A DNA stretch of 28,605 bases from a virus: the IMG/VR virus record IMGVR_UViG_3300030331_005795, positions 1 to 28,605 of that record; one strand, given 5' to 3'. Position 1 is the first letter of the stretch; the number at the start of each line of letters is the position of its first letter. The notes under the pieces are model-generated. The model had not been told where the DNA came from. It made no database searches and worked only from the letters and a program-made list of their open reading frames with translations. The translations under genes were made by a program, and so were the position numbers. Below are positions 9,001 through 28,605 of this stretch, in pieces.

Positions 9001-9298
9001 TATTATAAAACTCATTTTTTTCAGCTTCAGAACCATCATAAGGGTAGTAATCAATTATTTTGTTAAGAGCACCTTCATAAAATAATTCAGCAGAACCAAA
9101 CCTAACAAAGTTTTTAACATCTGAATAATCAATTTGCGGCACATATGTGACGGCCCTTAACTCAAGAGCCAAAGCATTGCCTAAAGATTCAACATCTTTG
9201 AAAAAATTCTTTTCAACATTGTACTCAGTATAGTTACGAGAACTGGTACGAGAATCGGTGAAAAGACTTCGTAGTCCTGTTCTTTTTCCGTTAGCCAT
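1..9298 (-). CDS. Giant LamG-domain virion protein, C-terminus beyond the left edge
   Basis: The minus strand is open from an ATG at 9298 to the left edge, giving at least 3099 codons with no stop. An AAGGAAAG ribosome site lies about 9 bases before the ATG. Two LamG/concanavalin-like domains are visible. The first spans about residues 200-420 and has the signature WHHYAFSF, a YVDGK strand and a closing YYKFNEG. The second spans about 1790-2000 with EWHHFAFTF, LWVDGT and LWFRMGDDE. Around residues 610-640 a KSKGTEKSI segment recalls tail proteins that dock on the baseplate. The rest is rich in Ser, Gly, Asn and Thr, as in phage fibre proteins. It follows gp25, gp6 and a DNRLRE-like protein, so a distal tail or adsorption role is likely. 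LamG domains usually bind sugars or proteins; the ligand here is unknown. No enzyme motif was recognised. Confidence is high that it is coding, moderate for function. Confidence 0.88.
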   Translation of the reverse strand, partial: MANGKRTGLRSLFTDSRTSSRNYTEYNVEKNFFKDVESLGNALALELRAVTYVPQIDYSDVKNFVRFGSAELFYEGALNKIIDYYPYDGSEAEKNEFYNKLFEGEKYIFDNLYPRFTGYGIFSADGWGSLNGSLDNGYGLPQSLEHITFKGGPHSTSNTAALSTLTNNPFNNKYQSANLHEENPYLNAGLPSDYDNGTRLSNLKSNFDTGVTVEFWLKHDGFDTDLTEKQVVFDLWNSSSIGSTDYGRLRIELFDTTGVNNTAFRITAQSSSATLATPSVEGVNPLTSSIGTQTTKAFLTDWHHYAFSFHNSGSNLIAKLYVDGKIDDTNIYENKKLGEITTSKMIGRIGALVTEVSASTPFSDPGAGKLSGSVDEFRFWKDSRDAREISLNYASHIGGGTNTDISNTSLGVYYKFNEGITGTSTIDSTVLDYSGRLTNGVWTGFGSNSRNTGSAFISSSAVESEYREPVIYSTHPDYERLRTTLLNSGSAYDGNNNGAFLNYAPSWIVDEHDDVGNKNLQIISHIVGSYFDKMYFLSNEIPKFKHATYTTSSARPISFASHLPTSLGLYVPDLFIDETILERLYNKNEEFAFEGSLQDTKNLIYHNLYNNLTAIFKSKGTEKSIKNVMRCFYLDDELVKLKKYNVNATYEMSNNLSQVVVDKKGINFNNINNLNGVIYQRKNDDNTETSGFISGSLPSSISPEKQLGFTLETDVIFPNYFTRYSSINRSGTEISLFGVHAVHTASVPSQDGTDTTFLSKSVNYKPLTMAGGDIANFQVSAVRAKANSKNVYFQLTSSYEPHPIPTLTSSVFLNVYDNTKWNISVRVEPNWQDSRHAKAADSLEYKVIFRGVNDVLGTTKNSFEVTGTFSTISGSNFLRSPKRVYVGAKRTNLTGALLVGTDVEMLNCRAWAKSINNDSLGSHNLGSENSGVEDLQQYLIANQTESTNVDITNFQSLVLDWTFNNVTSSDGSGNFFVQDASSGSALIRDNYGWIGNVAGHQHSGYAENFATSSTDVIKQIKINSFKAIEPEQVVSGDMINILSSDDQVIGIDQTVPSYFFNVEKSMYDAISSEMLTFFAGVVDFNNLIGEPVHRYRARYKDMEKLRATFYQKVNKTTDVEKYFDYYKWFDDALSSIIAQLLPASADGLEKINNVVESHILERNKYKTPFPTLETKDPGPDAPMYGITEKAYPYAVGFSSLPQSPRSTNIRETYWRERAERSAIEITSGDSTIDAHREIYRNVIISNPFLRRVTPTLFTGEATYEPDLYAARTFIKTQLYKVRRLNNIKGGSNFTGNKNIHFALNALRPAGDVNTANGGYVPLNVLVAFMTDLEKVKTNNDPKPGLNKIERHLKVFSGKSYDEGSSESILDSATAFPFSIYETTVKSGHQAELINRLTGANIQITNLHNDVYGPDLEKPMQGIFTEHNVGGHQSRHIDLNTGNDNQISRPEAWRILLGTCTDTILSGAIGVVGPDYPNPNTHLRGPAAYPYELHQKAVYYRDMTAKRPVNIKNIRITGSKVLGNYSNTYEYVQAVGAFENPRHFIDNQPNLPAEAFQLNSTSSTSIRTFLDIKRTSGNHFQNVSDYSTAYLTSSKNKSIIISRFSNPGGIEVMSKGYQDFRSSEFSVYNSLNYRNLSVLRPSQGPSGTISTPAISGDTTNIQVFDIHGKDYGLYSHLARHTARFGRDSLHVPDDQTGVTTDELPGFHKVHRNNLIRNKINYAYESRDIPGSGQVKLVNEKSLYFQSDDAHGNTDDNILYLGHSTSDVSARSQIQFDAEWAEAYGGADKAVTYTWSGWMKFPDTTDNPRGDNGQQGIFDIGYNNDTDRAIMRLSINASGRRALFVLGNTDGDGANQTKSFLQGSNVLPVIQDNEWHHFAFTFSGSHGNLKTDGTFIKLWVDGTETNLSNGLKTDHEFFPTSSHKSNFRNFGINLEKPVSFFGHLNTGGGTTPYEFSGFADEVSMYRKILSSDEIGQLYNAGHPLNLTHSSAPATGSLLLWFRMGDDEQDNTSLSGSRPQLNDSTAQLTNVAPALSSAPGNSKIDFAYLTCTDAADHTLSVGTSSINFLTGNTPPQYLYEYISGFTDDNVYDNFYVQHQIPRSSKQYAWITASLVSDNNFVGYTPKDFLVKQSAIGLSGTQYVDAYNFVSQSEFGSYIASTGQRVWGKDISAPVTFEGPRSRIFQTTHLNLNINEPISQSSNTLGFPPSVPLLNINDVTPGNQYRNTALVTHADASGPFGYQSNDYGSGYVFNSLMFKRGNQYGFNDFTALRQSDNAIFRAQRRNNTITLIDKQGDDGALTTYSLQPVSNRTIPYIINFESDQGFTYAVKATHENSKIYFNDIRMDNVYAPISDTINSPAQHIIQIARSRNHRLNWIISQQQLFPSLRNEFKSSSYTKPGFDNKYWRDDRQERVTANALGYFYSSASLPGFPTASAEFLFPECSDRLECILAPAGFGFKNPGYPTDASPESAGMWVSVDAMGNYASASSWPLDAPENFTTREAISPIWPQTQRGAPGQLQNDYSFFLPITSSLVGEIITLFFSYYRKGTGIRYARPHVCEIPTSMVSPNDARSHYPFQSSSNILPIEMSGAFNQEHTIFFRGLGGGAANWDTPANAGIYKPTFDLITSQSSIEFTLKPSQPWFNNYSDFNHDLKLVAKGFSVIPEYRISENVSKYIRDAELDNPFEELELEIPHVTASTTINDESFFITYSNSEFLKDFLQIKRESLLDAKEIRLSCTGAIRFNPYKGFYPVQRSINLIEQFKNSYQQNFGAQFNYFGPVVPIRPADDLATSILDGDPSNGGGFDPGTGSVKNGAYRPLLASLFSPGILYNSIKSGMAVDYPIVTNPGKIAYYAYNTGSIGIEGERFTRSGSLANCSYATSFDVSGAVGGKTTNTGSFFDERLPFETMLEPTRHLAGKSFFELESQPLMRLSIFKTASYVANVEDDVYPQMARNFFGAVPSFFLKNSQFTSLKSNIKTDTYSFSGSEVYMMRVKMNRSTEGLRTYTYEVDGFGKSEDGASGGDISVWANDGCKTYDTDAGAYLPIESGSYFVVPQDPRYANFYDSISGSMPGLFRQTFTMYSRPSAFGPDLAGRPAPSHNFT

Positions 9299-13091: not shown

Positions 13092-16000
13092 CTAATCATC
13101 ATTTTTATTACACAATTTACCTTTAGCGTTAAATGGCGTAGATTTAAGTCTTCTGCCGCCACCTAAGCCGCCACCAGGTGGTAAAGAGATAGCTGCCTTA
13201 AGGTTTTGTATAAATAATTTACCACCATTGCCAGGTTTAGTAAGTTCTCCAACTGCGCTGTCAAAATCTCTATTGTTGTATAATGGTTTAAAAAGTTTTT
13301 TAATTCTAGTTCTAGAATTTCTAAGTAGTACTTTATCCCACTCATCCCATGTTCTATAAAATGGTGTAAAACTAGCAGGGAAACTATTTCTATCACTATA
13401 ATGTTCCCATCCTTCAGCTTTTTGTATTTCAATATATTGGCCGGTTTCTTCGTTAATGTTAATTTTCATTCCTGGCTTTTTATCATAGTTGCCATCTTTG
13501 TCGCCTTTGCTGGCAGTAATTTGCCCAATTGAAGATAACATACCTTGATCATTATATATCGCTATAAGAGAGGTAAGCTTACTCAGTGGGAATACATAAC
13601 TCATCAAAATTTTGAATTTTTCATCATCTTTTAGCATGTTAACTAAGCATAATAAAAGTTTTGAATTTGCTTCAAGGGGTGGTATTTGTGTGCATTTTAA
13701 ATCAAGTGCATCTAATTCTGCGTTTGTGACTTCTATAACCTCTCCATCATGATTTATAAACGATAATTGTAAACCATAGCGTACCCCAAGTTTGCCTGAT
13801 AAGCCTATAATTCTGTCATCTTCATCGCGTTCAAGTTTTAAAGTCCCTGGGTAAACATCAGAAATATTTTTCGAATCATCATGCTCTTTAACGATTGCAA
13901 TAGCGTCATTTGGTGACATTTTGTTACCATTAATTGAAATATACTTTTGTATCACAAAAGGCTTTGTGCGATTTGAAACTATAGATGTGCCAAAAGGATC
14001 AATATCGCCTATTGGGACAATTATTTTGTTAGCAAAAACTGTAAGTTCTTCGTGAGATTCATCATTGTGGTGCTCGCCTACCATATAAATATTAATACCA
14101 TCTTCATTTTCATGAATATGATAATATCCAACATATGGCGTGCCATCTGGTAATGCAAGTTCTGTGCCGTCTGTATATTTAGAGCCACCCGAGGAAGTTC
14201 CAATTTCCATAACTTCTTCTTTAATTTCTTTATCTAAATCAAGATTAGCTCCACCTTGGGAATGAAACTTAAGAGTATATAACAGTAAGTCATTGTATTG
14301 TGGTGACAGGCCAACAGATGAACAGTTATCGTTAAACTTTGTAGCCATTGCATTGAGTTCTTGCACAATAAATTCTTTTAAAACTAATTTGGCATCCTCT
14401 TCAGTTGATTGTACTGCTTCTAAATTTCTTTCGTAGCGCCAACCTTTTAATGTTTGAAAGGGAAACTCTTGGGCTCGGTCTAATTCCCTGTTTGTTTTTA
14501 AATTTGAGCGAGATGGATATTTATAGTTTTCTTGAGCGTCATTCAATCTAAACATTGCTAATTGTACTGCCTCTGGTGGATCTATTTTACCTTCCGCAAC
14601 CAATCTTGAATAAGTTTGCACTGATTGTTCTAAGAAAGAATACCAAAATTCTTCATCTTTAAAAGGATTAAAAAATTCAGCAAATCCTCCTTGCGCATCC
14701 TTAAAATCTTTTTCCATTACTTCCACTATGTAAGCAGCAAAAATTGAACTATAATTTTCTTTAACACCAGCATTGAATGTTACAAAAGTTGGCATGCATT
14801 TAACATAATAAACTGATGCATATATTCTACATGCTGCGGTTATTAAACCTTGAATAGTAGCTTTTGATTGTCGGTTTAAAATGCGATCATATGGCTTTTC
14901 AACAACACAGTCTGGGTCTCCTTTAAGTCTTTGATCCTCTGGCATATTAGCTAATGATTTTTGAACATTTGTTTGTATTTCCCCGAAATCAACCAAATCG
15001 CTTAGTTGCGGTTTGCAAGGGCCAATTTCTGGAAACATAACGTCAACCATACCAAGCCATCCAGTATTTTTTACCGGCTTGACATAGACTTTGGGCCTAG
15101 CGTAAGAACCACCGTATACCATAGGATCTAAATAAAATACTCGGTTTGGTCTATCATAATCGGTGCCAAAATCGGACTTATTGTTTTGTTTATATTTCAT
15201 ATAACTAATACCAAGAATCATATCGTCATTACTAATTTTCCGATCGCCTTCTCTATCACCATCAGCATTAAAATCTGGCACTCTTGCTTTACCATACGCA
15301 GTGCCAGCGTCTGAAAGGGTTGTACCACCTTTAACAACATATATCATATCTTCTTCAGTTATATCATCAATACCGGCGCCATAACTCCATTTAACATCAT
15401 CAAGATTACCAGCAACTAAAGTCATCATTTGCTTCATAATTTCATTTAGAAATGAATCATGGTATTCTTTTAACTGCGACGTTGGAGACTTGCCTAACAA
15501 GTCTGCAAGCATATTAACTTGTGGAATAAATTTAGTTTTTTGAGTTCTAGATAAAGCAAAGCTAGGATAATTTTCTAAATTAATATTATCTAATGTATTG
15601 TCCACTGACAAAAATTCATATTTTCTTTCTCTTATAGCGTCGTTTTCACTTACAGCTTGGGCATTAGCAACATATGTTGAAGATTGAACTTCAGACGGCG
15701 GGTCAAACGCCTTATGTATAATTGCAACTCTTGCATTATCGTCAGGTCTATTAATATATATTTTTTCATCGCTATCAGTGTCAAGCATTTCAATATCAGA
15801 TAACCACATTTTTACTTCAAATCCAAAATCGTAAGGGGGCGGAGTAACTCCCGGTGGTGCACTTTTACCATTTCTATTATCTTGATAGGAAAGCTTTATG
15901 TCTGCTTTGTCTTTTCTAGGAGCTTTTTTAATTACAACTCTTTCATTGTTCATTTGAACAGAGAACTTAGTATTGTAACCAAAATCTGGTAGTGCTAATA

Positions 16001-19000
16001 AATTAATATTAAGTGTTCCAAATAATCCTTCAAAACCTAAATCTTCAAATGATCTGAAAAGTTTTTTTCCTTTTCTTATATTTGACTCGCTGTTATCGCT
16101 ATCAAAGCTTATATTTTCAGCTTGCGACAATATTTGACTTCTCAAGTGCTCTCCGACATACGCAGGAAACTGACCAAATTGTCTTTCAATATCAACTCCG
16201 TCATAGTTTTGATCACCGTCGAGGCCAAAAAGACTTCCAAGATCTGATGAATAACCTTTAGTTGCATAATCAACATACCGTTCTTTATTTGCCGAAAGGC
16301 GCCTGTGGGTACTAAGAGCACGACCATGGGTATCGGAAAGAATCATGTTAATGAGTCCCCAATCGTCATTACCTGCGAATAAGCCACCATTGCCAAGCAT
16401 ATCCTTAGAATATGCAATTTGTAATTGTTCCAGTTGCCCACCTATTAAATTGTTTGTTAGTTTGCTATCAATTTCGTTTTCAAATGGCACAATACCGTCA
16501 TCACAGCCCGGTGTTGAAACAATTGGTGGTAGTGCCGCGGCTACTGCGGCTCCGATGCCGCTTTGCGATAAATCAGTTAATTCTTCTAAATCTTCTAATA
16601 AATCAGACTGTAATTGGTCAAACATAGTTTCACAATCTTCCGGTGTACACTTCCCTTCAAGTAATAAGCACCTTCTATCTAACCAACGATCAAGATCCTC
16701 TGGTGTTGCACAAAGAGATGGATTTGCTGGAAACAAATCGTTTTCTGGTATGTTATTAAGAAAATCTCTCATTGAGTCTCTAACGGGCGCTGGCATAAGC
16801 TTGCCAATATTGCTAAATAAATCAGCAATGTCTTGCTTGGTAGGAAAAGCATCTAAAAATTCTGGGTATTGATTCACAAGTATATTCATTGCTGTGTCAT
16901 TAAAAGCTTGTGACGCGTTTCCATCGGCAGCCTCAAACATTTCACGACGGCTCGTTGAGTTTGCAAGATCTTCACAAAATTGTCTTATCTTTTCTCTATC
17001 AGATAGCGCGGCGCCGCCAACACCGAATTTCTCAAACATTTCAGCAATTGTTGCATCAACTTGTTCATCTGATGCATCTGGGCCGCAGATTGATTCTCTA
17101 ATTATATTTCCAAAAGTGTCTCTACCAGATAACAAATCAGGCAAGGATGCAACCACATCACCAACAGTGCCAAGAGCTTTGCAGATAGCATCACCCAGCA
17201 ACTCACAAACCTTAATTAAAATTCTAAATAATATTTTTAGCAACACTTGTTGTATTGCAATTATAATTGCATTGTATATCTCATTTAATATGTCAGCTAA
17301 AGATGGAACCCAACCAAATGGATTTTGCAACATAGGTAATTGAATTTCTTGAATATTTCTACAAAATGGCAAATCAACACTATTCAAAAAATCTGCAAAA
17401 TTTGGATCAAATGTTGGTGGCGCCGGACAATCAAATATAGCAATAATTTTAGCAATAATTTCTGCACCGGGGTATTTGTTTAATTCGTCTACTAAAGATA
17501 ACAAATCATTGGAATAAACTTCAATAAGCGCAATTATGTATGCATCCATAACTGAATCTGGATTTATGCCAAAGTTTTCTGTATTAGACTGCGAACTTCT
17601 TGCATCATCTAATTTCTGTATCAGTGTACGATTATTTCTTTGTGCATATGGATCGCTTAATGAAATTTGCCTAACTTCATTATCATAGTTACCATAACTT
17701 TTATTTGCTTGCTCTCTTTCTAAAAGTTTTTCATCTTCCCAAGGTTTTTTAATTTCAATTTTACCAAATAATCTTAAATTATCATCAGCTCTTTCAACAT
17801 CATCAAGTCTTCTATCTGATGGGGCTGGAGGCTCCGACATTTTTTTCTTAACAAGGGCGTCCAGTTCTCGTTGCTTGTTAGCGGGAAGACCAATGAATAA
17901 ATCGCCCCAGTTGTTTAATGGCAATGCTTTTAATGCAGACTGTAAAGCAACTTTGAGTGCTTGTTCAAGTGATAACCCCTTGAATAAACATTGAATTGCA
18001 TCCATCATTAGATCTAGCAAACCACACAATTTTAATCTGCCTAACCCATCGCGATAAAGGGTTCTCATTATTTCATCTGTTGATGTTCCTAACGGTAATG
18101 AAGAACCTAATAATGTTGCGCACATCTGAATAAAAACCTGATCGCTATCTTCTAATTGCTCAAATGCTTGTGAGGTGGCCATTGCGGCAATTGATTTAGT
18201 CTCACCAGTTTTTGGGTCTTTTAGTTCATTAAACTTTACACGTCTTTTACCATTTTTAGTAGTCTTGTGTATAATACCCAATTGTTCAAGTTCAGTATTA
18301 ATTGCCCCTTGAGAACGCTTACAAACATTTTTGTGAAATTGATAAGCGATAGCGTCACCAATACTAAAAATGTCATCAATTATGTCTTGTCCTAATTGTT
18401 TGCCCTCTTCAAGAAGCGCATCACCTACACAGCTTAAAGCATGTTTAGTATTGCTACCATCAAGTTGAGGTGTTGGATATTTTTCTGCTGTTGAAACTTT
18501 TGGATACGTAAACTTTTCTACAAACTCAAGCCACGGTCTTTCTACTCTAGCGCTTAAAAAAGAGTCAATTTCATCTAGTTTGGCAAAATATGCTAAGGCT
18601 GTGGGATCTTTATAGGCTGTTTTTGAATTAAGAGAATTTAGTCTTGAGCCACTAAAGACAATTGGTTTTTCTCCGCAGCCTACTGTATAAATTGTAAGCT
18701 TATTAAGTTTATAATCATGACTAAAGCTCATTTCAAACTTAGTAACATTGTTATTATCAAACAAATATTTAAAATCACCGATGCCGGCTAAATATAAATT
18801 ATATCCTCTATCATTTAAAAAGTTATCTAAATCTTTTAAAACATCTGCGGTTCTTGAAGAGCCTACAAAAAAGCCTGCGTCACCATATCTGTCAAATTTG
18901 TTGTGTGTGAATACAGTGCCATCGTCAAAATATAAATTGCCACCTTCAATGCCAGTAAAAACACGGTAATATCTTCCGTAAAGATTCATAGCCTTTCTTA

Positions 19001-19568
19001 GCTTCATTAGTTTAGGAAATATAGTATTTGTATTATATTTAACAACTATTGGGCTTGTATCAGTTGATTCTTCTTCTTGATCATCTTCAGTCATGTCTGG
19101 GATTAAAGCAAAAACATCTACAGGGACCGAATACAACAATTTTACGTTAGAGAAAGGTCTTGGGTCTAGATCATATTTTGAATAATCAACTGCGTCCAGT
19201 AAAATTTGAATGTTTTCTTGACTTACCAATTTGTTAAAATTATCAAGCAAAGATACCATAGCATCATTTGCATAAGTATCAAATAGCACAAGACGATATT
19301 CTTCTACAGTTAAATCAGAAAATTCACCGATCGGCGGAGGCAAAAGTGAGGTTTCCCTGGTTGTAATGGTACACTGCATCAAGCAATATTTTTCATTTAG
19401 CCAAGGTTCTAAATTATCTTTTTTTCTCCAGTTTGGGGTTACAGCAGCTGGATTTCTAGTGCACGGTGGACATTTAAACGTTGGAATTGTTTGTACAAAA
19501 TCGTCACACGCATCAATTAACCCGTCTTTATTTTTGTCTTGATATTTTAAAAAAATTGATTCAGCCAT
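13092..19568 (-). CDS. Very large (2158 aa) probable baseplate/tail protein with Ca-binding-like loops
   Basis: I do not recognise a named family for this protein. The N-terminus has a canonical 12-residue EF-hand loop at residues 11-22 (D11, N13, D15, G16, I18, D22). It is followed by a CPPC pair (C33, C36) and a second cysteine pair (C62, C66). A second calcium-loop candidate of dockerin-like form spans D1438-D1449. Residues about 763-800 are strongly hydrophobic or amphipathic helices (YNAIIIAIQQVLLKILF). A histidine-dense segment runs from H1817 and H1819 through H1833/H1834 to H1839. The last residues include a glycine-rich stretch (PPGGGLGGG). The ATG follows a TAGGAAC ribosome site 6 bases upstream, and the gene starts 8 bases after the 395-aa gene. 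Its place between hub-like genes and gp25 makes a structural baseplate or hub-associated role likely, but the function is inferred from context. Confidence 0.8.
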   Translation of the reverse strand: MAESIFLKYQDKNKDGLIDACDDFVQTIPTFKCPPCTRNPAAVTPNWRKKDNLEPWLNEKYCLMQCTITTRETSLLPPPIGEFSDLTVEEYRLVLFDTYANDAMVSLLDNFNKLVSQENIQILLDAVDYSKYDLDPRPFSNVKLLYSVPVDVFALIPDMTEDDQEEESTDTSPIVVKYNTNTIFPKLMKLRKAMNLYGRYYRVFTGIEGGNLYFDDGTVFTHNKFDRYGDAGFFVGSSRTADVLKDLDNFLNDRGYNLYLAGIGDFKYLFDNNNVTKFEMSFSHDYKLNKLTIYTVGCGEKPIVFSGSRLNSLNSKTAYKDPTALAYFAKLDEIDSFLSARVERPWLEFVEKFTYPKVSTAEKYPTPQLDGSNTKHALSCVGDALLEEGKQLGQDIIDDIFSIGDAIAYQFHKNVCKRSQGAINTELEQLGIIHKTTKNGKRRVKFNELKDPKTGETKSIAAMATSQAFEQLEDSDQVFIQMCATLLGSSLPLGTSTDEIMRTLYRDGLGRLKLCGLLDLMMDAIQCLFKGLSLEQALKVALQSALKALPLNNWGDLFIGLPANKQRELDALVKKKMSEPPAPSDRRLDDVERADDNLRLFGKIEIKKPWEDEKLLEREQANKSYGNYDNEVRQISLSDPYAQRNNRTLIQKLDDARSSQSNTENFGINPDSVMDAYIIALIEVYSNDLLSLVDELNKYPGAEIIAKIIAIFDCPAPPTFDPNFADFLNSVDLPFCRNIQEIQLPMLQNPFGWVPSLADILNEIYNAIIIAIQQVLLKILFRILIKVCELLGDAICKALGTVGDVVASLPDLLSGRDTFGNIIRESICGPDASDEQVDATIAEMFEKFGVGGAALSDREKIRQFCEDLANSTSRREMFEAADGNASQAFNDTAMNILVNQYPEFLDAFPTKQDIADLFSNIGKLMPAPVRDSMRDFLNNIPENDLFPANPSLCATPEDLDRWLDRRCLLLEGKCTPEDCETMFDQLQSDLLEDLEELTDLSQSGIGAAVAAALPPIVSTPGCDDGIVPFENEIDSKLTNNLIGGQLEQLQIAYSKDMLGNGGLFAGNDDWGLINMILSDTHGRALSTHRRLSANKERYVDYATKGYSSDLGSLFGLDGDQNYDGVDIERQFGQFPAYVGEHLRSQILSQAENISFDSDNSESNIRKGKKLFRSFEDLGFEGLFGTLNINLLALPDFGYNTKFSVQMNNERVVIKKAPRKDKADIKLSYQDNRNGKSAPPGVTPPPYDFGFEVKMWLSDIEMLDTDSDEKIYINRPDDNARVAIIHKAFDPPSEVQSSTYVANAQAVSENDAIRERKYEFLSVDNTLDNINLENYPSFALSRTQKTKFIPQVNMLADLLGKSPTSQLKEYHDSFLNEIMKQMMTLVAGNLDDVKWSYGAGIDDITEEDMIYVVKGGTTLSDAGTAYGKARVPDFNADGDREGDRKISNDDMILGISYMKYKQNNKSDFGTDYDRPNRVFYLDPMVYGGSYARPKVYVKPVKNTGWLGMVDVMFPEIGPCKPQLSDLVDFGEIQTNVQKSLANMPEDQRLKGDPDCVVEKPYDRILNRQSKATIQGLITAACRIYASVYYVKCMPTFVTFNAGVKENYSSIFAAYIVEVMEKDFKDAQGGFAEFFNPFKDEEFWYSFLEQSVQTYSRLVAEGKIDPPEAVQLAMFRLNDAQENYKYPSRSNLKTNRELDRAQEFPFQTLKGWRYERNLEAVQSTEEDAKLVLKEFIVQELNAMATKFNDNCSSVGLSPQYNDLLLYTLKFHSQGGANLDLDKEIKEEVMEIGTSSGGSKYTDGTELALPDGTPYVGYYHIHENEDGINIYMVGEHHNDESHEELTVFANKIIVPIGDIDPFGTSIVSNRTKPFVIQKYISINGNKMSPNDAIAIVKEHDDSKNISDVYPGTLKLERDEDDRIIGLSGKLGVRYGLQLSFINHDGEVIEVTNAELDALDLKCTQIPPLEANSKLLLCLVNMLKDDEKFKILMSYVFPLSKLTSLIAIYNDQGMLSSIGQITASKGDKDGNYDKKPGMKININEETGQYIEIQKAEGWEHYSDRNSFPASFTPFYRTWDEWDKVLLRNSRTRIKKLFKPLYNNRDFDSAVGELTKPGNGGKLFIQNLKAAISLPPGGGLGGGRRLKSTPFNAKGKLCNKNDD

Positions 19569-20769: not shown

Positions 20770-22056
20770 TTACGTTGTTGTTTTAGCAGGGGGGCTTGAA
20801 ATAAGTGGCAAACTTCTATTTTTCACAGATCTAGGAAATCTCGGATCTTGTTTTAGCCCAGTTTGTTTTTCAAAATTATCGCGATAAATATCAAACGCTG
20901 GTCCAGGATCTTCTTTGCCAGCTGCTCGGTTATCTTCATGACAATAATAAGTTTTAATATTAGGATATGCTGCTACTAATTGTTTTACAATTGTTATCAA
21001 TCCTTGAATCTGAGCCTGCGGAATTGGCTCCCATTTTTTTGTTACATTAGAGTCATAGCTTTTCCATTCTTCAATTGGTGGAGTTTTTAACGGACGGGGA
21101 AGACTTGGAAATTCGTCTAATAATTGTTTTCCACTAGAAAAAACTACGGTTTTACCTGCAAATTGAGATGCTGTATAGGCTAAATTAACTAAGCTAATGC
21201 CAATTGATATTGTATTAGATGGTGGACCAATTCCGCCTTTAACAGCCCCGTGCCAAGCTTTAAACTTTGTATCTACTGTGTTTATTACAGAGCCATCTTT
21301 TTCAACTAAATAATGATAGCTTAGTCCTCTATTACGAAGTGCAACTATTGCATCGGCCGCATTCTGTGTAACTGTTGAGTGTAACTCAATTGAATCCCAA
21401 TTCTTTTCATTTTCTTTGCCCGCGTTAAGTAAAAACGGAGACTTTGCAGGATCAGGTGTATATGTCAATCCCTGACCAGGGAGGCTACCTGTAGCATTAA
21501 AAATTGCTTTAGCACTAAGACATTGATCTGTTACAGCACTAGCTGCGACCGCTTCGTTGCTTATTTTCTGTTCAATGCTGTCAAAATAACAAAATTGAAC
21601 ATCTATTGGGCCGGCCTGACCAACTGTAGCATTTGCTGTAACAATGTCACCAATACGTGGCATTGCTGAAAAACTATCAACTTTAGATATACACAACATA
21701 TGAGCATTGATAACCTGTGACAAAGCTTCATCATTACCAATAAATTTTGTTGGATTACATGGATCTTCTAAAAGCTGGTGAGCCGAGATAAAATTATCGC
21801 CCTGTATCCTTCCACGAAACATAATTTGAGTTTGAATTTGCCCAAACGGATTGTTTTTTAAATCACCTGGAACATTTGGTTGAATACCATTTATAATAGG
21901 AATTGGTGGCGAAACAACTTTCACTGATAACGCGTTTAAGTTTTTATATGTGTCAACTCTTGTCATAATATCAATCATATATGCATTATAATCATCATAT
22001 TCAACAGGATTGGTTAAATCTAAAAATGGAGTTTTATCATATTCAGCTGAAGACAT
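20770..22056 (-). CDS. Tail-associated N-acetylmuramoyl-L-alanine amidase with hub-like N-terminus
   Basis: Residues about 218-395 form an Amidase_2 (T7 lysozyme/PGRP-type) domain that would cleave the amide bond between MurNAc and L-alanine in peptidoglycan. Likely zinc ligands are H226 (IELHST) and H269 (AWHG). The third-ligand region includes H373 (YYCHEDN) and ends in KEDPGPAFD, with K381 and D383 in the usual catalytic places. Y248 (SYHYLV) fits the family tyrosine. Residues 1-200 are not amidase. They contain short strands such as MFRGRI, NAHMLCIS and MPRIGDIVTA, resembling an OB-fold hub domain, but this is a weak match. T4 gp5 pairs an OB fold with a lysozyme, so this looks like an analogous architecture with a different enzyme. 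An AGGT ribosome site lies 6-7 bases before the ATG. No signal peptide is present, as expected for a virion-borne enzyme. Confidence 0.85.
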   Translation of the reverse strand: MSSAEYDKTPFLDLTNPVEYDDYNAYMIDIMTRVDTYKNLNALSVKVVSPPIPIINGIQPNVPGDLKNNPFGQIQTQIMFRGRIQGDNFISAHQLLEDPCNPTKFIGNDEALSQVINAHMLCISKVDSFSAMPRIGDIVTANATVGQAGPIDVQFCYFDSIEQKISNEAVAASAVTDQCLSAKAIFNATGSLPGQGLTYTPDPAKSPFLLNAGKENEKNWDSIELHSTVTQNAADAIVALRNRGLSYHYLVEKDGSVINTVDTKFKAWHGAVKGGIGPPSNTISIGISLVNLAYTASQFAGKTVVFSSGKQLLDEFPSLPRPLKTPPIEEWKSYDSNVTKKWEPIPQAQIQGLITIVKQLVAAYPNIKTYYCHEDNRAAGKEDPGPAFDIYRDNFEKQTGLKQDPRFPRSVKNRSLPLISSPPAKTTT

Positions 22057-22103: not shown

Positions 22104-22397
22104 TTAAGCGTCGTCTTTTTGAATTAAATCAAAAAGTTCTTCTTTGTCTTTGTCGCTAAGCTCAAGTGAAGCTCCCTGATCTTTTTGTTTTAAAGAAATT
22201 ATTTTGACCAATTGTTCATTTGAACGTTGTAATGTTTCAATATGTTTGGCAGCTACTGGGCTAAGATATTTATTTTGTTCAGGTTCGCGCGCAATCTGAT
22301 TAGCGACTTCATTTAAAAATTCTCTAGCAATTTTTCTATCATTTCTAATATTACCCAAAGCTTCTTGCACTAAGTCATCAAGTGTGTTGTTGCTCAT
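22104..22397 (-). CDS. Small helical acidic protein after gp55, possible late co-activator
   Basis: This protein has 97 residues from the ATG at 22397. A longer reading from a TTG at 22415 is less likely, because GGGAGG at 22408-22413 is a good ribosome site 10 bases before the ATG, and the ATG overlaps the sigma factor stop as ATGA. The protein is almost entirely helical and charged, with a central ETLQRSNEQLVKIISLKQKD segment and an acidic C-terminus (KEELFDLIQKDDA). I cannot name the family. T4 gp33, the late-transcription co-activator, is of similar size and also has a short acidic-hydrophobic C-terminal tail that binds the sliding clamp. Coupling to gp55 makes a gp33-like role possible, but there is no direct sequence proof. 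Confidence 0.72.
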   Translation of the reverse strand: MSNNTLDDLVQEALGNIRNDRKIAREFLNEVANQIAREPEQNKYLSPVAAKHIETLQRSNEQLVKIISLKQKDQGASLELSDKDKEELFDLIQKDDA

Positions 22398-23104
22398 AAA
22401 GTACCAGCCTCCCAATCAGTCTTGAAACAATAATATTTTTTTCTAAACTTTTTTAATGAGTTAACAATCTGCTTAGTGTTTAAGCCCGTTATTTCTCTTA
22501 AGTAAAGATAAATAGCTTTTTTGTTAAATATCTCAATATCTTCTTTTGATTCAAAAAGTATTATAATTGCTTGATATACTTTCAAATCATTATCTTTCAT
22601 TTGGGATGAATCCCACGATTTTAATTCCTCATAAAATAATTTCCAAAATTCTTCTTCAACCCTGTTACTTACATAAGATTCATTAGTAGATAAAAATTCT
22701 TCTTCGTAATTTTTAGATATATTATCAAAATCAACTTCTCTCTGGTTTCTTTTTTGTTGTCTCTTTACCTTGTGAATAAACCAATTTTTTGTAATTACTG
22801 AAAAGTAAGAAAAAGCTTTTGAACCTTTACTTGGGTCATACTTATCTAATATTGTCATAAGCCAAATTTTACATTCGTCACGCAAATAATCAATGTTTGG
22901 CAGGTTTGTAAACTTATATGTAAACACAATTTTATCTACCATTTCGTTAAACGCTGGTTCAATCCAGCGAACATATAAGTCTGTTCGTTTTCTAACGCAC
23001 GTAATTTTACAATATTCTATGATCGCGTCTTCATGATCTTGTGTAAAATAATGATTTTTATTTTTTGGGCGCCTACCTCTTCTTTTTTTAGGTTGTGTTG
23101 TCAT
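22394..23104 (-). CDS. gp55: gp55-like sigma factor for late transcription
   Basis: This is 236 residues from the ATG at 23104; an in-frame ATG at 23134 would add ten. The later start is preferred because GGAAC lies 6 bases upstream of it, while the earlier ATG abuts its only purine run. The N-terminus is very basic (KKRRGRRPK). Residues 50-125 resemble sigma-70 region 2: a helix with IVFTYKF, then DECKIWLMTILDKYDPSKGSKAFSYFSVITKNWFIHKVKR, the region that contacts the polymerase coiled coil and the -10 element. Residues about 195-228 may be a helix-turn-helix (YLREITGLNTKQIVNSL). T4 gp55 is 185 residues, so this is somewhat longer. It overlaps the upstream membrane-protein gene by 17 bases and the downstream 97-aa gene by four. 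Confidence 0.88.
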   Translation of the reverse strand: MTTQPKKRRGRRPKNKNHYFTQDHEDAIIEYCKITCVRKRTDLYVRWIEPAFNEMVDKIVFTYKFTNLPNIDYLRDECKIWLMTILDKYDPSKGSKAFSYFSVITKNWFIHKVKRQQKRNQREVDFDNISKNYEEEFLSTNESYVSNRVEEEFWKLFYEELKSWDSSQMKDNDLKVYQAIIILFESKEDIEIFNKKAIYLYLREITGLNTKQIVNSLKKFRKKYYCFKTDWEAGTL

Positions 23105-23423
23105 CAGTTTGTTCCATTTGTGTTTGTATTTCATCCTCTACTTCAGCATATTGATAAACAAAATTAAAAGTTTCCATCTGTTCATTAAACGAGCGAGCAT
23201 GCTCAATTAACCCATTAAGTGTTTCATCACCATAAAACATTTCCATTTCATAAACTGATTCAAGATGAACTGTAAAGTTGTCAATTATGAGTCCTAAATC
23301 ATAAAGTTCAGTAGAAATATTGATTAGTTTACTAACTACATTTTTTGCATATGCAAAAAGACCCATATTTAGTAACACTGATAAGGTGAGAGTTGCGGAT
23401 AAAATTATTTCAAGTCGGCTCAT
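23088..23423 (-). CDS. Small membrane-anchored protein
   Basis: This 111-residue protein has one N-terminal transmembrane helix at about residues 5-26 (IILSATLTLSVLLNMGLFAYA). A soluble, acidic helical region follows, with VYEMEMFYGDETLNGLIEHA around residues 57-76 and an acidic Gln/Glu-rich tail. The pattern of a TM helix followed by an EMFYGDETL motif looks familiar from small uncharacterised proteins of marine T4-like phages, but I recall this rather than being able to test it. With no signal cleavage site the helix is probably an anchor, leaving the acidic part in the cytoplasm or periplasm. The start overlaps the zinc-ribbon gene stop by 14 bases and the end overlaps gp55. Its function is unknown; a link to lysis timing or membrane association of late proteins is conceivable. 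Confidence 0.8.
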   Translation of the reverse strand: MSRLEIILSATLTLSVLLNMGLFAYAKNVVSKLINISTELYDLGLIIDNFTVHLESVYEMEMFYGDETLNGLIEHARSFNEQMETFNFVYQYAEVEDEIQTQMEQTDDNTT

Positions 23424-23875: not shown

Positions 23876-24721
23876 TTACTCCTTATTATAGTTAACTGCG
23901 CGACCTTCAAGCTCTTCCCAATCTTTAGACGGTCGCACCTCTAAATTTTTTTCCCATACTGATTCTAAAACAGTTGGATTTAAGCCCATCATTTTACAAT
24001 ATGATATTAGTGCATTTACATCTTTTGGAAAACACGAACCACCAAAACCTAGGTTCCCGTCAGGACCAGGTACTGATAAATGTGTGCTTCCAATACGTTC
24101 ATCATACAACGCATACTCTAAAACTTTATCATAATCTACATCAATGCTATTGCACATTTGCTTAAATTCATTAGCAAAACTAACTTTAGTGGCAAGAAAT
24201 GTGTTTGTAAAATATTTTATACATTCTGCAACAGTTGAGCTAGTTTTAATGATAGGCGTTTTTGGAAAAGCTTTTCTGAAAATATTTTTAACCTTAGTTG
24301 AGGCAGGTCTAACACCACCAACGATGATCCTGCTTTGATTTTTAAAATCATCAATAAAATTTGCCTCTGTTAAAAACTCAGGACTAAAAACAACACTAAT
24401 ACAATCACACTCTTTATTTAATTTTTCTGTTGTACCTGGGGGCACTGTTGATTTAATTATTACTATCTTATTGTAACCCGTAGCATTTATTTGCTTTACT
24501 GTATTCTTAACTATTGTAGTATCGCACTCGCCATTTTTTAACATGGGAGTGGGTAAACATACAAATATGACATCTGTTTTTAATACTAAATCATCTAGAG
24601 TATTACATGTTGACTTACCTAAGTCACGGTCATACGTTTGAATGTTAAAGTGTTTACTTAAGCCTTCTTTAACAGCAGTGCCTACAAAGCCTTGCCCGAC
24701 TATTCCAATGTTAGTGTTCAT
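23876..24721 (-). CDS. UDP-glucose/GDP-mannose dehydrogenase lacking the C-terminal domain
   Basis: This 281-residue protein has the N-terminal NAD-binding Rossmann fold of nucleotide-sugar dehydrogenases, with G9, G11 and G14 in GQGFVG and the acidic D31 at the second strand. It continues with CLPTPM (55-60), STVPPGTT (91-98), SPEFLTEA (113-120) and the catalytic loop GFGGSCFPKD with C230. Such enzymes oxidise the sugar C6 hydroxyl to a carboxylate in two steps, for example UDP-glucose to UDP-glucuronate. Family members are usually 390-450 residues. This one ends soon after the central helical dimer segment and so lacks the C-terminal nucleotide-sugar-binding domain. The next gene starts three bases later, so no remnant is present. 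The start overlaps the cupin stop as TAATG. The exact substrate cannot be read from the sequence. Confidence 0.85.
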   Translation of the reverse strand: MNTNIGIVGQGFVGTAVKEGLSKHFNIQTYDRDLGKSTCNTLDDLVLKTDVIFVCLPTPMLKNGECDTTIVKNTVKQINATGYNKIVIIKSTVPPGTTEKLNKECDCISVVFSPEFLTEANFIDDFKNQSRIIVGGVRPASTKVKNIFRKAFPKTPIIKTSSTVAECIKYFTNTFLATKVSFANEFKQMCNSIDVDYDKVLEYALYDERIGSTHLSVPGPDGNLGFGGSCFPKDVNALISYCKMMGLNPTVLESVWEKNLEVRPSKDWEELEGRAVNYNKE

Positions 24722-25080
24722 TAATCTCCCTTTACTAAACGATAACTATCTTCATCAAAGTGCGGGGTTGAAAATTCAAATAATTCTGTGTCCTGCAATG
24801 CTATCATTTGATGTCGCAGCCCACGATGAACATGAAAATTGTCTCCCTGCTGTAATACTACTTCTTCTGCAGAATCTAAATTATCAGATTCCGAATACTT
24901 TACAATTATTTTTCCAGACTGTATATAAAATACCTCATCTTTTAAAATATGATAATGCCAAGAGCATCTTTTACCTTTTACAAAATAAAGTAATTTTCCA
25001 CAATATTCACTGTTATTAACAATCCATTTTTCAAAGCCCCAACCTTTAGGCACAAAATTCATTTCTAAAGAAGTCTTCAT
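24721..25080 (-). CDS. Single-domain cupin, sugar-isomerase-like
   Basis: This protein has 119 residues from the ATG at 25080. An upstream in-frame ATG at 25101 would overlap the HAD gene further and lacks a ribosome site, whereas AAGGGG at 25088-25093 lies 7 bases before the chosen start. The cupin metal motif is clear: H42, H44 and E49 in WHYHILKDEVFY, then G56. The second motif follows, with G79 and H90 (GDNFHVHRGLRHQM). Small cupins like this occur in sugar biosynthesis clusters, where relatives include the isomerase domain of mannose-6-phosphate isomerase and sugar epimerases. Its neighbours handle nucleotide sugars. The actual reaction is unknown and it could be a binding protein only. 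Confidence 0.8.
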   Translation of the reverse strand: MKTSLEMNFVPKGWGFEKWIVNNSEYCGKLLYFVKGKRCSWHYHILKDEVFYIQSGKIIVKYSESDNLDSAEEVVLQQGDNFHVHRGLRHQMIALQDTELFEFSTPHFDEDSYRLVKGD

Positions 25081-25378
25081 CTTTAATCCCCTTATCATCA
25101 ATATATATGTCCCCTGCAGGTTTCCCTAAAAACAGTTCATGAAAATTGACATTCCAATTTTTTAGTTGTTGGTAAGTTAGTTCGTAAAATGCTTCATGAG
25201 CATAGCTGTAAGAATTATTTGAACGGCCCATTCCTCGTGCAGTTTGAAAAATTATCCTGTGTCCATTTTTATACAAATTGTTTACAAAATTAATTCTATC
25301 TTGAATTGGTTTTGCTTTTGAATAATCTCCCTCTGTTTTAGTGCATATAGTGCCGTCAATATCAAATACATATGTCAT
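25046..25378 (-). CDS. Small HAD-family phosphatase-like protein
   Basis: This 110-residue protein has all four HAD motifs in a minimal form. Motif I is D6-I-D8-G-T, with the nucleophile D6; motif II is T46 in FQTARGMG; motif III is K86 in LGKPAGD; motif IV is D94-D95 in YIDDKG. It has almost no cap, as in compact C0-type HADs that act on larger or phosphorylated sugar substrates. Proteins of this form occur in capsule and LPS gene clusters. Here the gene lies between a sugar-phosphate nucleotidyltransferase and a cupin, so removal of a sugar phosphate is the likely role. The start overlaps the nucleotidyltransferase stop as ATGA, and its 3' end overlaps the cupin gene by about 35 bases. Confidence 0.82.
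   Translation of the reverse strand: MTYVFDIDGTICTKTEGDYSKAKPIQDRINFVNNLYKNGHRIIFQTARGMGRSNNSYSYAHEAFYELTYQQLKNWNVNFHELFLGKPAGDIYIDDKGIKDEDFFRNEFCA
25088..25093 (-). promoter_or_regulatory. Ribosome site deciding the cupin start
   Basis: AAGGGG on the minus strand, 7 bases before the ATG at 25080. It lies inside the end of the HAD gene and favours this start over the ATG at 25101. Confidence 0.55.
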
Positions 25379-25764
25379 AATATTTTTTCCAATGTTGAAG
25401 TTGTTGAGTATCCATCAACAAAATTAAAAATTTTTATGTCGCATATATCACTTCCAACAACTTCTTCAGTTTTGTAATCTCCGCCTTTAACAATAAAATC
25501 AGGTTTAATTTTTTTAATTAGTTCATACGGTGTATCTTCACTAAATATATGTACTTCATCAACAAATTTAATTGATTCTAACAGAAATTTTCTATCATTC
25601 TCAGAATTGTAAGGTCTGTGTGCACCTTTGAGTTTTTTTACACTATCATCGCTATTTAAGCCAACATAAACAACATCACCTAATGTTTTGCAATATTTAA
25701 GTAATTCTATATGGCCGCGGTGTAGGACGTCAAAGCACCCATTTGTAAAAATAATTTTGTTCAT
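25375..25764 (-). CDS. HldE C-terminal-type sugar-phosphate nucleotidyltransferase
   Basis: This 129-residue protein closely follows the adenylyltransferase domain of HldE/RfaE. It has TNGCFDVLHRGH (7-18) with the HxGH pair H15 and H18, then LKGAHRPYN (45-53), EDTPYELIKKIKPDFIVKGGDY (76-97), EEVVG (100-104) and the C-terminal GYSTT (118-122). In HldE this domain transfers AMP to heptose 1-phosphate. Related enzymes use CTP with glycerol 3-phosphate, but the KGGDY and GYSTT motifs favour the HldE type. The kinase domain that normally precedes it is absent. Overlaps of ATGA type tie it to the SDR gene upstream and the HAD gene downstream. It probably supplies an activated heptose or similar sugar; the exact sugar and nucleotide are inferred. 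Confidence 0.88.
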   Translation of the reverse strand: MNKIIFTNGCFDVLHRGHIELLKYCKTLGDVVYVGLNSDDSVKKLKGAHRPYNSENDRKFLLESIKFVDEVHIFSEDTPYELIKKIKPDFIVKGGDYKTEEVVGSDICDIKIFNFVDGYSTTSTLEKIL

Positions 25765-26264
25765 AATTTTAACATTTCAAAAACTAATTCAGCAGAAATT
25801 TTTTGTCCTTGAAACGAAAGTATTTTTGAATATCCATCATACTCAAGGCTTTTAATAATATTTTTGCAAACATCATTTAGCAACATTAATTCCATTATAC
25901 CATATGGTTTTATTTTTTTATATTTTAATAACTGTAAAGTTCCTTTTGTGCCTACTATTGTTGGAAACCTCAACACTAAACAATTTTTGCAATTTTGAAT
26001 TAAATACGATTCAGCTAGATGTTTATACATAACATACCATGAACTTTTTTCAGATTTTGTTGAGATAAATATTATTTTATCATTTTTGTTTTTATCAACA
26101 AAATTTTTAAATTTTTTATATTCTAATTTTTGAATATTTTTAGACTTATCGTCAATATTCCATGTATGATATATGTGAGTTTTACATTCACAAATTGCAT
26201 CTATTAATTTATTACTCAATAAGCTACCTAGTTGACCCCTGCCATTTGCTAATATAACATTCAT
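25761..26264 (-). CDS. Minimal SDR/epimerase-like protein
   Basis: This 167-residue protein has hallmarks of the extended short-chain dehydrogenase/epimerase fold but is about half the usual length of 300 or more. A glycine motif G8-x-G10-x-x-G13 stands at the N-terminus. IIFIST (64-69) fits the strand holding the catalytic Ser/Thr, and Y77-x-x-x-K81 fits the catalytic pair. CLVLRFPTIVG (95-105) matches the VIRP.NVYG strand of sugar epimerases. Much of the region between the nucleotide-binding strands and most of the substrate domain is missing, so activity is uncertain. It is very Lys- and Ile-rich, reflecting the local AT content. It overlaps both neighbours by four bases. It may epimerise, reduce, or only bind a nucleotide sugar. 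Confidence 0.72.
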   Translation of the reverse strand: MNVILANGRGQLGSLLSNKLIDAICECKTHIYHTWNIDDKSKNIQKLEYKKFKNFVDKNKNDKIIFISTKSEKSSWYVMYKHLAESYLIQNCKNCLVLRFPTIVGTKGTLQLLKYKKIKPYGIMELMLLNDVCKNIIKSLEYDGYSKILSFQGQKISAELVFEMLKL

Positions 26265-27313
26265 ACCAAAACAAACTTTATTTGTTCGTAATTAAGTTCT
26301 TTGTTGGTTAAGAAAAAATATTTTAATAATATTTCTTTTAAAAGTTCTGGATATTTGGCTGTGTTATCATCATTATAAGCATTTAGATCATGTTGCATTC
26401 GCGAATGCAGTGGAGCGTTTGGGTGGTTATGATATCCTAGACCAGCTTTTTTAGCCTGCGGGTCATTCATCCACTCCAAAGCGCTTCGGCCGCAAAATAA
26501 ATTATCCCAGTAGTTTCCAGTTTGATTTGAAATGTAATTGTAACCACTGCAAGGAGCCTCGATTGCTTTGACATGTCTAACTTGTAAATCTGATACAACA
26601 ACCCAATCTTTTTTAATTGCTTTACAACTGTAAATATAAGTTGATTCAGCACAAAATGCAACAAAAACATCAGGCGATATTCTTTTGTCAAACGTTTTCC
26701 AAAACTCATTTGAAAACAAGCTTGCGTGTAAATTACATGTACCACCAGGGGGAACAACAAAATCTTCTCCAGCTATTTGAATGTCACCAAATTTTGTTTC
26801 ATACACAAACCCCCCTCTTGATTTAGACCATGCCGAGAATGCTTCGGGAGAATCCTCAACCATGGTATCACCAATATAGCCACCCATTAAATCATTAAAA
26901 GCTGTGTCAGTATCTGTTTGAATTGTTACAATACCGTACTTATCTGTTTCTAATCTTTTATAAGCTTCAGACAAAACATGTGTTTGATTGTCAAAATTAA
27001 CACCAGAGTCAATGTATAAGTATCCTTCAAATTCTCCATATTTATTTACCATTTCTTTAACGGTTTTGTTAAAAGTAACTTGAATTACATTTTTTTCTGG
27101 GTATAAACAATATGAAATTTTGTCTCCAAATTCTTGGTATAACCGTCTAAAACAGCCTTCACTGTTCATACAAGATGATAATACAACATGAAAACCATCA
27201 AAGTCTTGATTTAATACATTTTGAATACAATCAATATACCAATCAATAGCTTCTCTCTTAATTCCACATGTATTGTAAACAACTAACATTTTTCTATTTT
27301 CTATAGTTTTCAT
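26261..27313 (-). CDS. Putative GT-A-type glycosyltransferase
   Basis: This 350-residue protein resembles GT-A glycosyltransferases loosely. It has an N-terminal strand MLVVYNTCGIKREAI, a second strand FHVVLSSC (41-48), and YLYIDSGVNF (98-107), where D102 is a candidate for the metal-binding DxD-like position. A later acidic site, AESTYIYSC, could hold the base. The mid part, residues 140-215, has GGYIGDT and PGGTCNLHASLF. No transmembrane segment is apparent. It would transfer a sugar from a nucleotide donor to an unknown acceptor. The gene follows the radical SAM gene by 7 bases, with a GAGGT ribosome site, and overlaps the SDR gene as ATGA. The family assignment is by pattern and context, and the acceptor could be host polysaccharide or a virion protein. 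Confidence 0.68.
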   Translation of the reverse strand: MKTIENRKMLVVYNTCGIKREAIDWYIDCIQNVLNQDFDGFHVVLSSCMNSEGCFRRLYQEFGDKISYCLYPEKNVIQVTFNKTVKEMVNKYGEFEGYLYIDSGVNFDNQTHVLSEAYKRLETDKYGIVTIQTDTDTAFNDLMGGYIGDTMVEDSPEAFSAWSKSRGGFVYETKFGDIQIAGEDFVVPPGGTCNLHASLFSNEFWKTFDKRISPDVFVAFCAESTYIYSCKAIKKDWVVVSDLQVRHVKAIEAPCSGYNYISNQTGNYWDNLFCGRSALEWMNDPQAKKAGLGYHNHPNAPLHSRMQHDLNAYNDDNTAKYPELLKEILLKYFFLTNKELNYEQIKFVLV

Positions 27314-27320
27314 TTTTACC

Positions 27321-28502
27321 TCAAATAAAGTCAGGGTGCTTTAGTGTTTGCCTAATAATACTTTTATCTTCTAGCAACTTTTCTTTAGTTACCCTTTTGT
27401 TTTTTAAATCTTGTTGAATTTTCCACATAGCTTTGTTGCTTTCGTGTGGTTTACAAAGTTTTGTACAATTTTTAAAACACTCAACGTTTTCAATCAAGTT
27501 CATAACTTCTCGTCTTTTTTGCAAATTATTCCAAATAGATTTAAAAGAATCTTCATACAAGTTGCCATAACTATATTGTTTCCAGCCTCTGTGGTTAGTG
27601 CAAACGTACACGTGACCATCTGCACCAATACATGGTGATAACTGAGAACCTAAACATTGTTTATAGTCCCTACCAAACTTTTCTCTGTCCATTGCTAAAT
27701 CTTCAAATTTGTATCCATTAACTTGAAATTTGTCACCCAATATTTTTTCTGCTTGTGTTAACAATGGATTGACTTTTTCTGTCCAAAATTCAAGTTCTCG
27801 CTGTTCACCGCCTTTTTCACGAATAACAATTTCAGGCTTATATTGACAATAAGACAAATCATAATCACTAAAAAATTCTGCAAAGTCTACAATTTCTGAA
27901 TACGTGTCCGGTGAAATAACATACCCTACACCAATGTCAATTTTGTTATTATATGTTTTGTTGACTTCAATAAGTTTTTGAAGATTAGAAACCATCTTGT
28001 CCCAATCTTGACGCCCCCTGGCGCGTCGGACACCATTATATGTCTCTCTCGTACCAGCATCAACTGAAATGCGTACCCACGTCATGTTTTCGACCAACGC
28101 CTCAAACATATCCCATTTATCAAATAGCGTTCCGTTAGTAAACATTCCCATTTTAATATTATTTTTGCCACAATATTCAATGGCTTCTTTAAGATGTCTA
28201 TTCAAAGTTGGTTCACCGCCACCAGTCCAATTAATTGCTTTAACTCCCATATCTACAAAATCTTCGCAAAGTGACATTAAAACTTCTCTAGACATAAGTG
28301 CTCTAGAAAACGTTTCGGTTCCCTTATATTTTTCAAAATGAATATAAGAAGACAAACAAAAACTACATGCATGGTTGCAGGCATTACTTGGATCAACTTC
28401 AACTAAAACAGGTGAAGTATATCCAGTTTCAATATGTTCTATTGCTCTGTCAACGTTTGCAATAATTTTAGATTGTGGATTGAATATTTTACTTTCTTTC
28501 AT
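27321..28502 (-). CDS. Radical SAM enzyme with SPASM-like C-terminus
   Basis: This 393-residue protein has the radical SAM cluster motif C42-x3-C46-x2-C49 (CNHACSFC), then GGGEPT (94-99), which binds the SAM methionine, and the later strand WVRISVDAG (142-150). The C-terminal third has a cysteine set of C283, C291, C301, C342, C346 and C350 around CIGADGHVYVC and CFKNCTKLC. This fits a SPASM/twitch region holding an auxiliary iron-sulphur cluster. Such enzymes modify peptides, sugars or other substrates by radical chemistry. The neighbouring glycosyltransferase and sugar genes suggest a carbohydrate substrate, but a peptide is possible. No small precursor-peptide gene was found in the window. 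The start overlaps the previous gene's stop by 14 bases. Confidence 0.87.
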   Translation of the reverse strand: MKESKIFNPQSKIIANVDRAIEHIETGYTSPVLVEVDPSNACNHACSFCLSSYIHFEKYKGTETFSRALMSREVLMSLCEDFVDMGVKAINWTGGGEPTLNRHLKEAIEYCGKNNIKMGMFTNGTLFDKWDMFEALVENMTWVRISVDAGTRETYNGVRRARGRQDWDKMVSNLQKLIEVNKTYNNKIDIGVGYVISPDTYSEIVDFAEFFSDYDLSYCQYKPEIVIREKGGEQRELEFWTEKVNPLLTQAEKILGDKFQVNGYKFEDLAMDREKFGRDYKQCLGSQLSPCIGADGHVYVCTNHRGWKQYSYGNLYEDSFKSIWNNLQKRREVMNLIENVECFKNCTKLCKPHESNKAMWKIQQDLKNKRVTKEKLLEDKSIIRQTLKHPDFI

Positions 28503-28605
28503 CTTCTAGCCATTTTAAAAAGTATATTGTTGGATCATTGAAATATTCTCTAACAATTGTTTCAAAATATTGTTTTGCTTCTTCAGCTTTCTGTTTTAAA
28601 ACCTG
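28489..28605 (-). CDS. C-terminal end of an unknown protein
   Basis: Only the last 38 residues are in the window. They are helical and charged, ending FNDPTIYFLKWLEDERK. The stop overlaps the radical SAM start by 14 bases, so it is co-translated with the cassette. No family can be named. Confidence 0.6.
   Translation of the reverse strand, partial: QVLKQKAEEAKQYFETIVREYFNDPTIYFLKWLEDERK

Follow-up and report, generated by a model that had tools for sequence, protein, structure and literature searches.

Gene arrangement at the contig end

The window analyzed here, the whole virus record of 28,605 bases, carries seven ORFs on its minus strand, running from 28502 to 23876. In the direction of reading, they encode a radical SAM/SPASM enzyme (rSAM, 27321..28502, 393 aa), a glycosyltransferase of predicted GT-A fold (GT, 26261..27313, 350 aa), a mini-SDR (25761..26264, 167 aa), an HldE-C/RfaE-type nucleotidyltransferase (NTase, 25375..25764, 129 aa), a small HAD phosphatase (25046..25378, 110 aa), a cupin (24721..25080, 119 aa) and a short UDP-glucose 6-dehydrogenase (UGDH, 23876..24721, 281 aa). 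We found all seven where a sequence-only reading had placed them, and its enzyme calls proved correct for each gene when compared with Pfam, PHROGs and NCBIfam and, for the GT and the SDR, with AlphaFold models and Foldseek.

The genes are separated by tiny gaps or overlap. The rSAM and GT genes lie 7 bases apart, 4-base overlaps were found at the GT/SDR, SDR/NTase and NTase/HAD junctions, and the HAD and cupin genes overlap by 35 bases, the cupin starting at the ATG at 25080 and not at the TTG at 25101. The cupin and UGDH genes overlap by 1 base, and UGDH is followed after 2 bases by the next gene. Beyond UGDH, the run continues unbroken through o67, a zinc ribbon gene, o111, a sigma-like gene (22394..23134, minus strand), which is context outside the sugar cassette, and o103, down to 22104. 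The tight packing of the sugar genes into the sigma-like and baseplate genes, noted in the sequence-only reading, was therefore seen in these overlaps and gaps. The same reading had proposed that the cassette is coupled to late genes. The close spacing agreed with this, but the promoter and terminator scans did not add to it: the T4 late-promoter scan (TATAAATA) returned counts at chance level, with zero sites within the cassette, and the sigma-70 promoter and terminator scans were uninformative.

The sigma-like protein had no match in Pfam. When aligned with an annotated phage late sigma factor it gave an hhalign probability of 96.7%, and homologues of its gene keep the same gene order in phages immuto and Mel-JY01; the protein is thus a putative gp55-type factor. 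The window also encodes gp25/gp6-type baseplate wedge genes. Among the baseplate genes are two giant genes, at 2-9298 (3099 aa, incomplete because the contig stops within it) and 13092-19568 (2158 aa), whose products had no PHROG match and are possible tail or adhesion proteins. In the same region, 20770-22056 encodes a protein whose C-terminal domain is an N-acetylmuramoyl-L-alanine amidase, perhaps the equivalent of the baseplate lysozyme.

The cassette had been described as a complete set of seven genes, which did not hold. On the minus strand, 28605-28489 translates to QVLKQKAEEAKQYFETIVREYFNDPTIYFLKWLEDERK*, 38 residues ending in ...YFNDPTIYFLKWLEDERK, which match the C-termini of a GT47-like cluster in 12 relatives (cluster assigned by a weak Exostosin_GT47 match, E=5e-4). 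The contig stops inside this gene, whose visible end (28489..28605) shares 14 bases with the start of rSAM, and in nearly all 12 relatives the GT47-like gene lies directly upstream of rSAM. Hence, the set contains at least one more gene, and the count of seven appears to be an artefact of the contig end. In related IMG/VR contigs, the same island occupies the same place before the sigma gene, with about 15-25 additional genes. Judged by these contigs, the segment is not a self-contained seven-gene unit; a much larger island for glycan biosynthesis would terminate here, at its 3' side.

We have compared six of the sugar genes and the sigma gene with their nearest relatives. Synonymous sites were close to saturation, with pS values of 0.67-0.89 and pN values of 0.08-0.35 between the window and these relatives; the full ranges for the tested genes were 0.59-0.89 and 0.07-0.36. 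This pattern points to strong purifying selection on the tested genes. With pN so low at this synonymous divergence, the cassette ORFs are not chance ORFs.

Enzyme families of the run

The rSAM matched the Pfam models Radical_SAM (1.2e-22) and SPASM (1.9e-6). Its CxxxCxxC motif is formed by C42/C46/C49, and these radical-SAM cysteines, together with C283, C291, C301, C346 and C350, were invariant in 21 phage homologues. The rSAM search retrieved three IMG/VR contigs encoding the enzyme at 78-85% identity, and an alignment query retrieved 31 rSAM loci in IMG/VR, most of them at least 48% identical; about 28 phage contigs share the conserved enzyme, with identities of 48-85%. Phage isolates gave only weak tblastn matches. 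Two named identities were considered for the enzyme and rejected. The viperin model scored 69 bits against an NCBIfam cut-off of 180, and a SPASM domain is present; for named peptide maturases, all scores were far under the curated cut-offs and the context is one of sugar genes.

The closest cellular relatives, among GTDB genomes, were from Pelagibacteraceae (SAR11) single-cell genomes, at 47-53% identity. One GTDB match at 60% was a phage contig inside a Prochlorococcus-labelled single cell. This 130-kb T4-like contig with an rSAM island (QCKN01000003.1; locus L048, the same as L031) is filed under Prochlorococcus AG-409-P03, and probably comes from an infecting or co-sorted phage in that single cell. 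At one SAR11 locus (L049), the rSAM, 48% identical, is the first gene past the 16S, two tRNAs, 23S region. HVR2, the surface-glycan region of SAR11, is located after the 23S region (PMC2217521), and by its neighbors the L049 rSAM appears to occupy that position. Homologues at 47-53% were found in three further SAR11 single-cell genomes, some among sugar genes. Close homologues are rare in SAR11 (1 of 297 SAR11-family genomes, plus 3 others from the GTDB search), so the rSAM is not a core host trait. In the rSAM tree, which was rooted at the midpoint only, the 28 phage sequences grouped together beside three SAR11 ones. A recent transfer from the sampled hosts was unsupported, the phage enzymes standing apart from the SAR11 ones in this tree.

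Neither the GT nor the mini-SDR matched any Pfam, PHROGs or NCBIfam model. The AlphaFold model of the GT (pLDDT 83) matched TarP and SpsA in Foldseek (E about 1e-7), which is indicative of a GT-A fold. That of the mini-SDR (pLDDT 90) matched WbmG, WbmH and RmlD (E about 1e-6), and the protein is predicted to have a truncated RmlD/WbmG-like fold. It has a GxGxxG-like motif, GRGQLG, and a YxxxK motif formed by Y77 and K81, which were invariant in 10 homologues. A single-protein query of viral records with the GT found nothing, unlike the later alignment query, which retrieved 29 viral loci. The phage GT family was absent from the 297 SAR11-family genomes in a search run without a positive control, and within the searches made here its members were in phage contigs only. 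Using tblastn with the GT or the mini-SDR, we obtained no match in phage isolates.

The remaining four genes matched family models. The NTase matched Pfam CTP_transf_like (9.7e-19) and phrog_7878 (1.4e-35), has an HxGH motif, and scored 163.8 bits with NCBIfam rfaE_dom_II, under the cut-off of 181.5. The HAD matched phrog_1238 (2.7e-29), has a DxDGT motif, reached 1.1e-11 with NCBIfam EcbF-BcbF, under the cut-off, and matched the capsule biosynthesis protein of PDB 9iqw at 1.5e-9. The cupin matched Pfam Cupin_2 (7.5e-8) and phrog_7851 (1.6e-57). Its HxHx4E...H metal site is intact, with H42, H44, E49 and H90 invariant in 8 homologues; together with the published reading, this makes it a putative sugar isomerase. 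UGDH exceeded the TIGR03026 cut-off (202.7 bits vs. 189.8) and has the GxGxxG and GGSCFPKD motifs. It comprises the NAD and central domains only, without the C-terminal UDP-binding domain, as do relatives of 280 aa. The ADP-heptose pathway (GmhA, HldE, GmhB, HldD) was considered and rejected: the HAD is EcbF/BcbF-like and not GmhB, and GmhA and HldD are absent from the visible cassette. The NTase set may work like an NDP-sugar pathway, with no heptose product implied.

Related islands and phage lineage

Three relative contigs (45.9, 38.3 and 36.7 kb) shared the gene order into o67, o111, sigma, o103, gp25 and gp6. Upstream, the contig G3 carries GT4, GT2, Mpo1-like, LicD, PEP mutase, epimerase, B12-binding rSAM, PanB-like, TPP enzyme, GT47-like, RmlC, DegT and PfkB genes, a large share of which was found in the others of these contigs; contig G1 extends on the far side to PhoH and PD-(D/E)XK genes. 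ORFs in the relative contigs were called mechanically, and start codons there are approximate. Among the 11 loci that reach o67 (G0-G3, L016, L017, L020-L022, L067 and L075), all had the cupin, 10 the NTase, 9 each the rSAM, GT and PfkB genes, 7 the SDR and 4 the UGDH. Island content is a mosaic on a conserved frame. In most relatives, the PfkB kinase gene is adjacent or close to that of the NTase; it is not in the visible segment, and the contig ends just upstream.

Gp23 was encoded in 7 of the 9 larger records with related islands, hence the island-bearing relatives are T4-like phages. The Gp23 frames in four of these records (G304, G306, G307 and G309, behind L021, L016, L096 and L082) were of 601-655 aa, and their match to the Pfam model was split in two, suggesting that Gp23 of this lineage carries an insertion. 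By gp6 and sigma, the nearest isolates were Microcystis phage Mel-JY01 and Flavobacterium phage immuto, with gp6 at 28-31% identity; gp6 of the window had no match in any Pelagibacter phage isolate. In neither Mel-JY01 nor immuto does the island directly precede the sigma gene; immuto does have sugar genes, some 18 kb away.

Within the islands of relatives, we also observed phosphonate genes (L008:11057-15165 in G001; L014:7504-11630, minus strand, in G003; L018:259-1584). The set comprises a cytidylyltransferase-PEP mutase fusion with an intact EDKx5NS signature and LicD, and G001 and G003 have split TPP-enzyme halves that are phosphonopyruvate decarboxylase-like. From this gene content, the phages may encode glycans that bear phosphonates. 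Among the collected phage records, full-length matches were limited to two human-faecal contigs, and our literature search found no description of phage-encoded genes for phosphonate-bearing glycans. A further run in G003 (L014:1432-5782, minus strand) encodes a B12-binding radical SAM enzyme, a ketopantoate hydroxymethyltransferase-like (PanB-like) protein and an acetolactate-synthase-like TPP enzyme. It is conserved in L017, L018, L020-L022 and L031, just upstream of the GT47-like gene, and suggests the synthesis of a branched or acylated sugar.

Comparison with known systems and proposed role

The view that the run is a sugar cassette of LPS type, carried by a marine T4-like phage, was supported by the baseplate wedge genes in the window and by the NTase-HAD-cupin genes, which correspond to T4-GC 304/306/307 of cyanophages P-SSM2 and S-SM2. 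In P-SSM2, the NTase, kinase, HAD and cupin genes are consecutive (T4-GC 304-307), and in S-SM2 the HAD and cupin genes overlap, as in the window. The HAD and the cupin are 52-59% and 64-67% identical, respectively, to the P-SSM2/S-SM2 proteins, the cupin being 67% identical to that of S-SM2. The cyanophage LPS clusters (P-SSM2, S-SM2 and S-SSM7; T4-GC 260, 265, 266 and 304-308) likewise have epimerases and GTs alongside, and were described with their functionality left open (PMC3037559). They differ in that no rSAM/SPASM gene is listed in the P-SSM2 and S-SM2 stretches, that they lie near hli03 or phoH while the island of the window precedes sigma and baseplate genes, and in phage lineage.

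The same logic has been proposed for a cupin isomerase, a PfkB kinase, a HIGH-type nucleotidyltransferase and GTs, with the purpose of pre-empting other phages (PMC7824862). Pelagimyophages carry glycosyltransferases, rfaE, UDP-glucose dehydrogenase and radical SAM cassettes, for which surface modification was proposed (PMC7029224), and a 183-kb T4-like environmental genome has 12 radical SAM genes (PMC5332604). By its description, the host-recognition cluster of pelagimyophages (HTVC008M-like), a variable region with glycosyltransferases and radical SAM cassettes, is alike, while rfaE and UDP-glucose dehydrogenase are in that cluster or elsewhere in these genomes (PMC7029224). A common lineage with the window is not implied, its gp6 being nearest to Mel-JY01 and immuto. 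SAR11 HVR2 has the 48% identical rSAM in common with the window, but the neighboring genes differ, and the three SAR11 loci compared are without the NTase-HAD-cupin block.

The concept of surface-sugar clusters in marine T4-like phages is therefore already published. The gene combination had been regarded as unrecognized, which did not stand for the NTase-HAD-cupin block, radical SAM cassettes, rfaE or UGDH. The less familiar part of the island is its conserved rSAM/SPASM-GT47-like-mini-SDR set, the rSAM of which links to the SAR11 surface region.

Based on these data, we consider it rather probable that the segment is the island end of an uncultured marine T4-like phage, whose product enters the host surface polysaccharide through host export and changes the surface late in infection. 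Starting from a sugar phosphate, the PfkB kinase (seen in relatives), the HAD and the NTase would yield an NDP-activated sugar, an order supported by established family chemistry and by adjacency in relatives, with the cupin possibly acting as a sugar isomerase on this route. The short UGDH would supply UDP-glucuronate, given its family membership, although it has no C-terminal UDP-binding domain. The rSAM/SPASM enzyme and the mini-SDR could perform a redox, epimerizing or dehydrating edit of a sugar, and the GT-A and GT47-like enzymes would attach the product. We recognized no flippase, polymerase or ligase in the island, hence the product would most likely pass through export enzymes of the host and become part of its surface polysaccharide. 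The late change of the surface could then result in superinfection exclusion or receptor masking. Synteny, gene content, the domain and fold calls, purifying selection, the match with cyanophage LPS blocks and the SAR11 link of the rSAM were observed directly; which substrates are used, in what order the steps run, when the genes are expressed and that the host surface is the target are what we infer. More tentatively, the GT47-like, rSAM/SPASM and mini-SDR enzymes might perform an undescribed radical-based sugar edit, with an rSAM common to the surface-glycan islands of SAR11 and several lineages of T4-like ocean phages, which would use it to alter the surface of the host.

A simple hydropathy count showed no multi-span membrane proteins encoded in the islands, except for a two-segment form of the small o111, outside the sugar genes. 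Export would therefore be done by host proteins or be unneeded, and in the latter case the island could glycosylate the virion, with cytosolic enzymes adding sugars to large proteins of the tail or capsid, for instance the 2158-aa and 3099-aa products encoded just downstream. GT-A enzymes are typically cytosolic in bacteria, the absence of export genes fits cytosolic glycosylation equally well, and the sugar genes are tightly linked to baseplate and tail genes. Even so, we regard virion glycosylation as unlikely: the nearest cellular rSAM relative with a clear setting sits in a surface polysaccharide region, comparable LPS clusters in cyanophages are located away from the sigma gene, and LicD and the dTDP-sugar genes of relatives resemble O-antigen pathways. 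Editing of the host surface, by adding an unusual sugar to its glycan, seems the most likely role by analogy with published surface-modification clusters.

Many characterized SPASM enzymes are peptide maturases, and the rSAM gave sub-threshold matches to such maturases and to viperin. That it is a maturase or a viperin-like antiviral enzyme, placed in the cassette by chance, is nevertheless improbable, because these matches fall far short of the curated cut-offs, viperins are without SPASM, no precursor-peptide ORF was a constant neighbor among ORFs of at least 50 aa, and the rSAM neighbors are mostly sugar genes in phages and SAR11 alike. T4-like phages can glycosylate their DNA, and nucleotides are conceivable substrates of the rSAM and NTase, with hypermodified or glycosylated bases as the outcome. 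The NDP-sugar enzymes (UGDH, RmlC, DegT, HldE-C) and several different GTs point instead to an oligosaccharide, with zero base-modifying enzymes among the genes scanned, which makes nucleotide or DNA modification highly improbable. Finally, cyanophage LPS genes have been considered as possible non-functional cargo, or stuffer DNA for headful packaging (PMC3037559). This reading is scarcely credible here: it is contradicted by pS far above pN in the tested genes, and the catalytic motifs are intact and the block order is conserved across phage lineages.

If host-surface editing is indeed the role, ocean phages would encode long, conserved pathways for remodeling host surface sugars, and one part of the pathway would use an enzyme family common to the SAR11 surface-glycan region. 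The rSAM/SPASM enzyme would then be a concrete target for assays, and the idea of superinfection exclusion would gain a concrete test.
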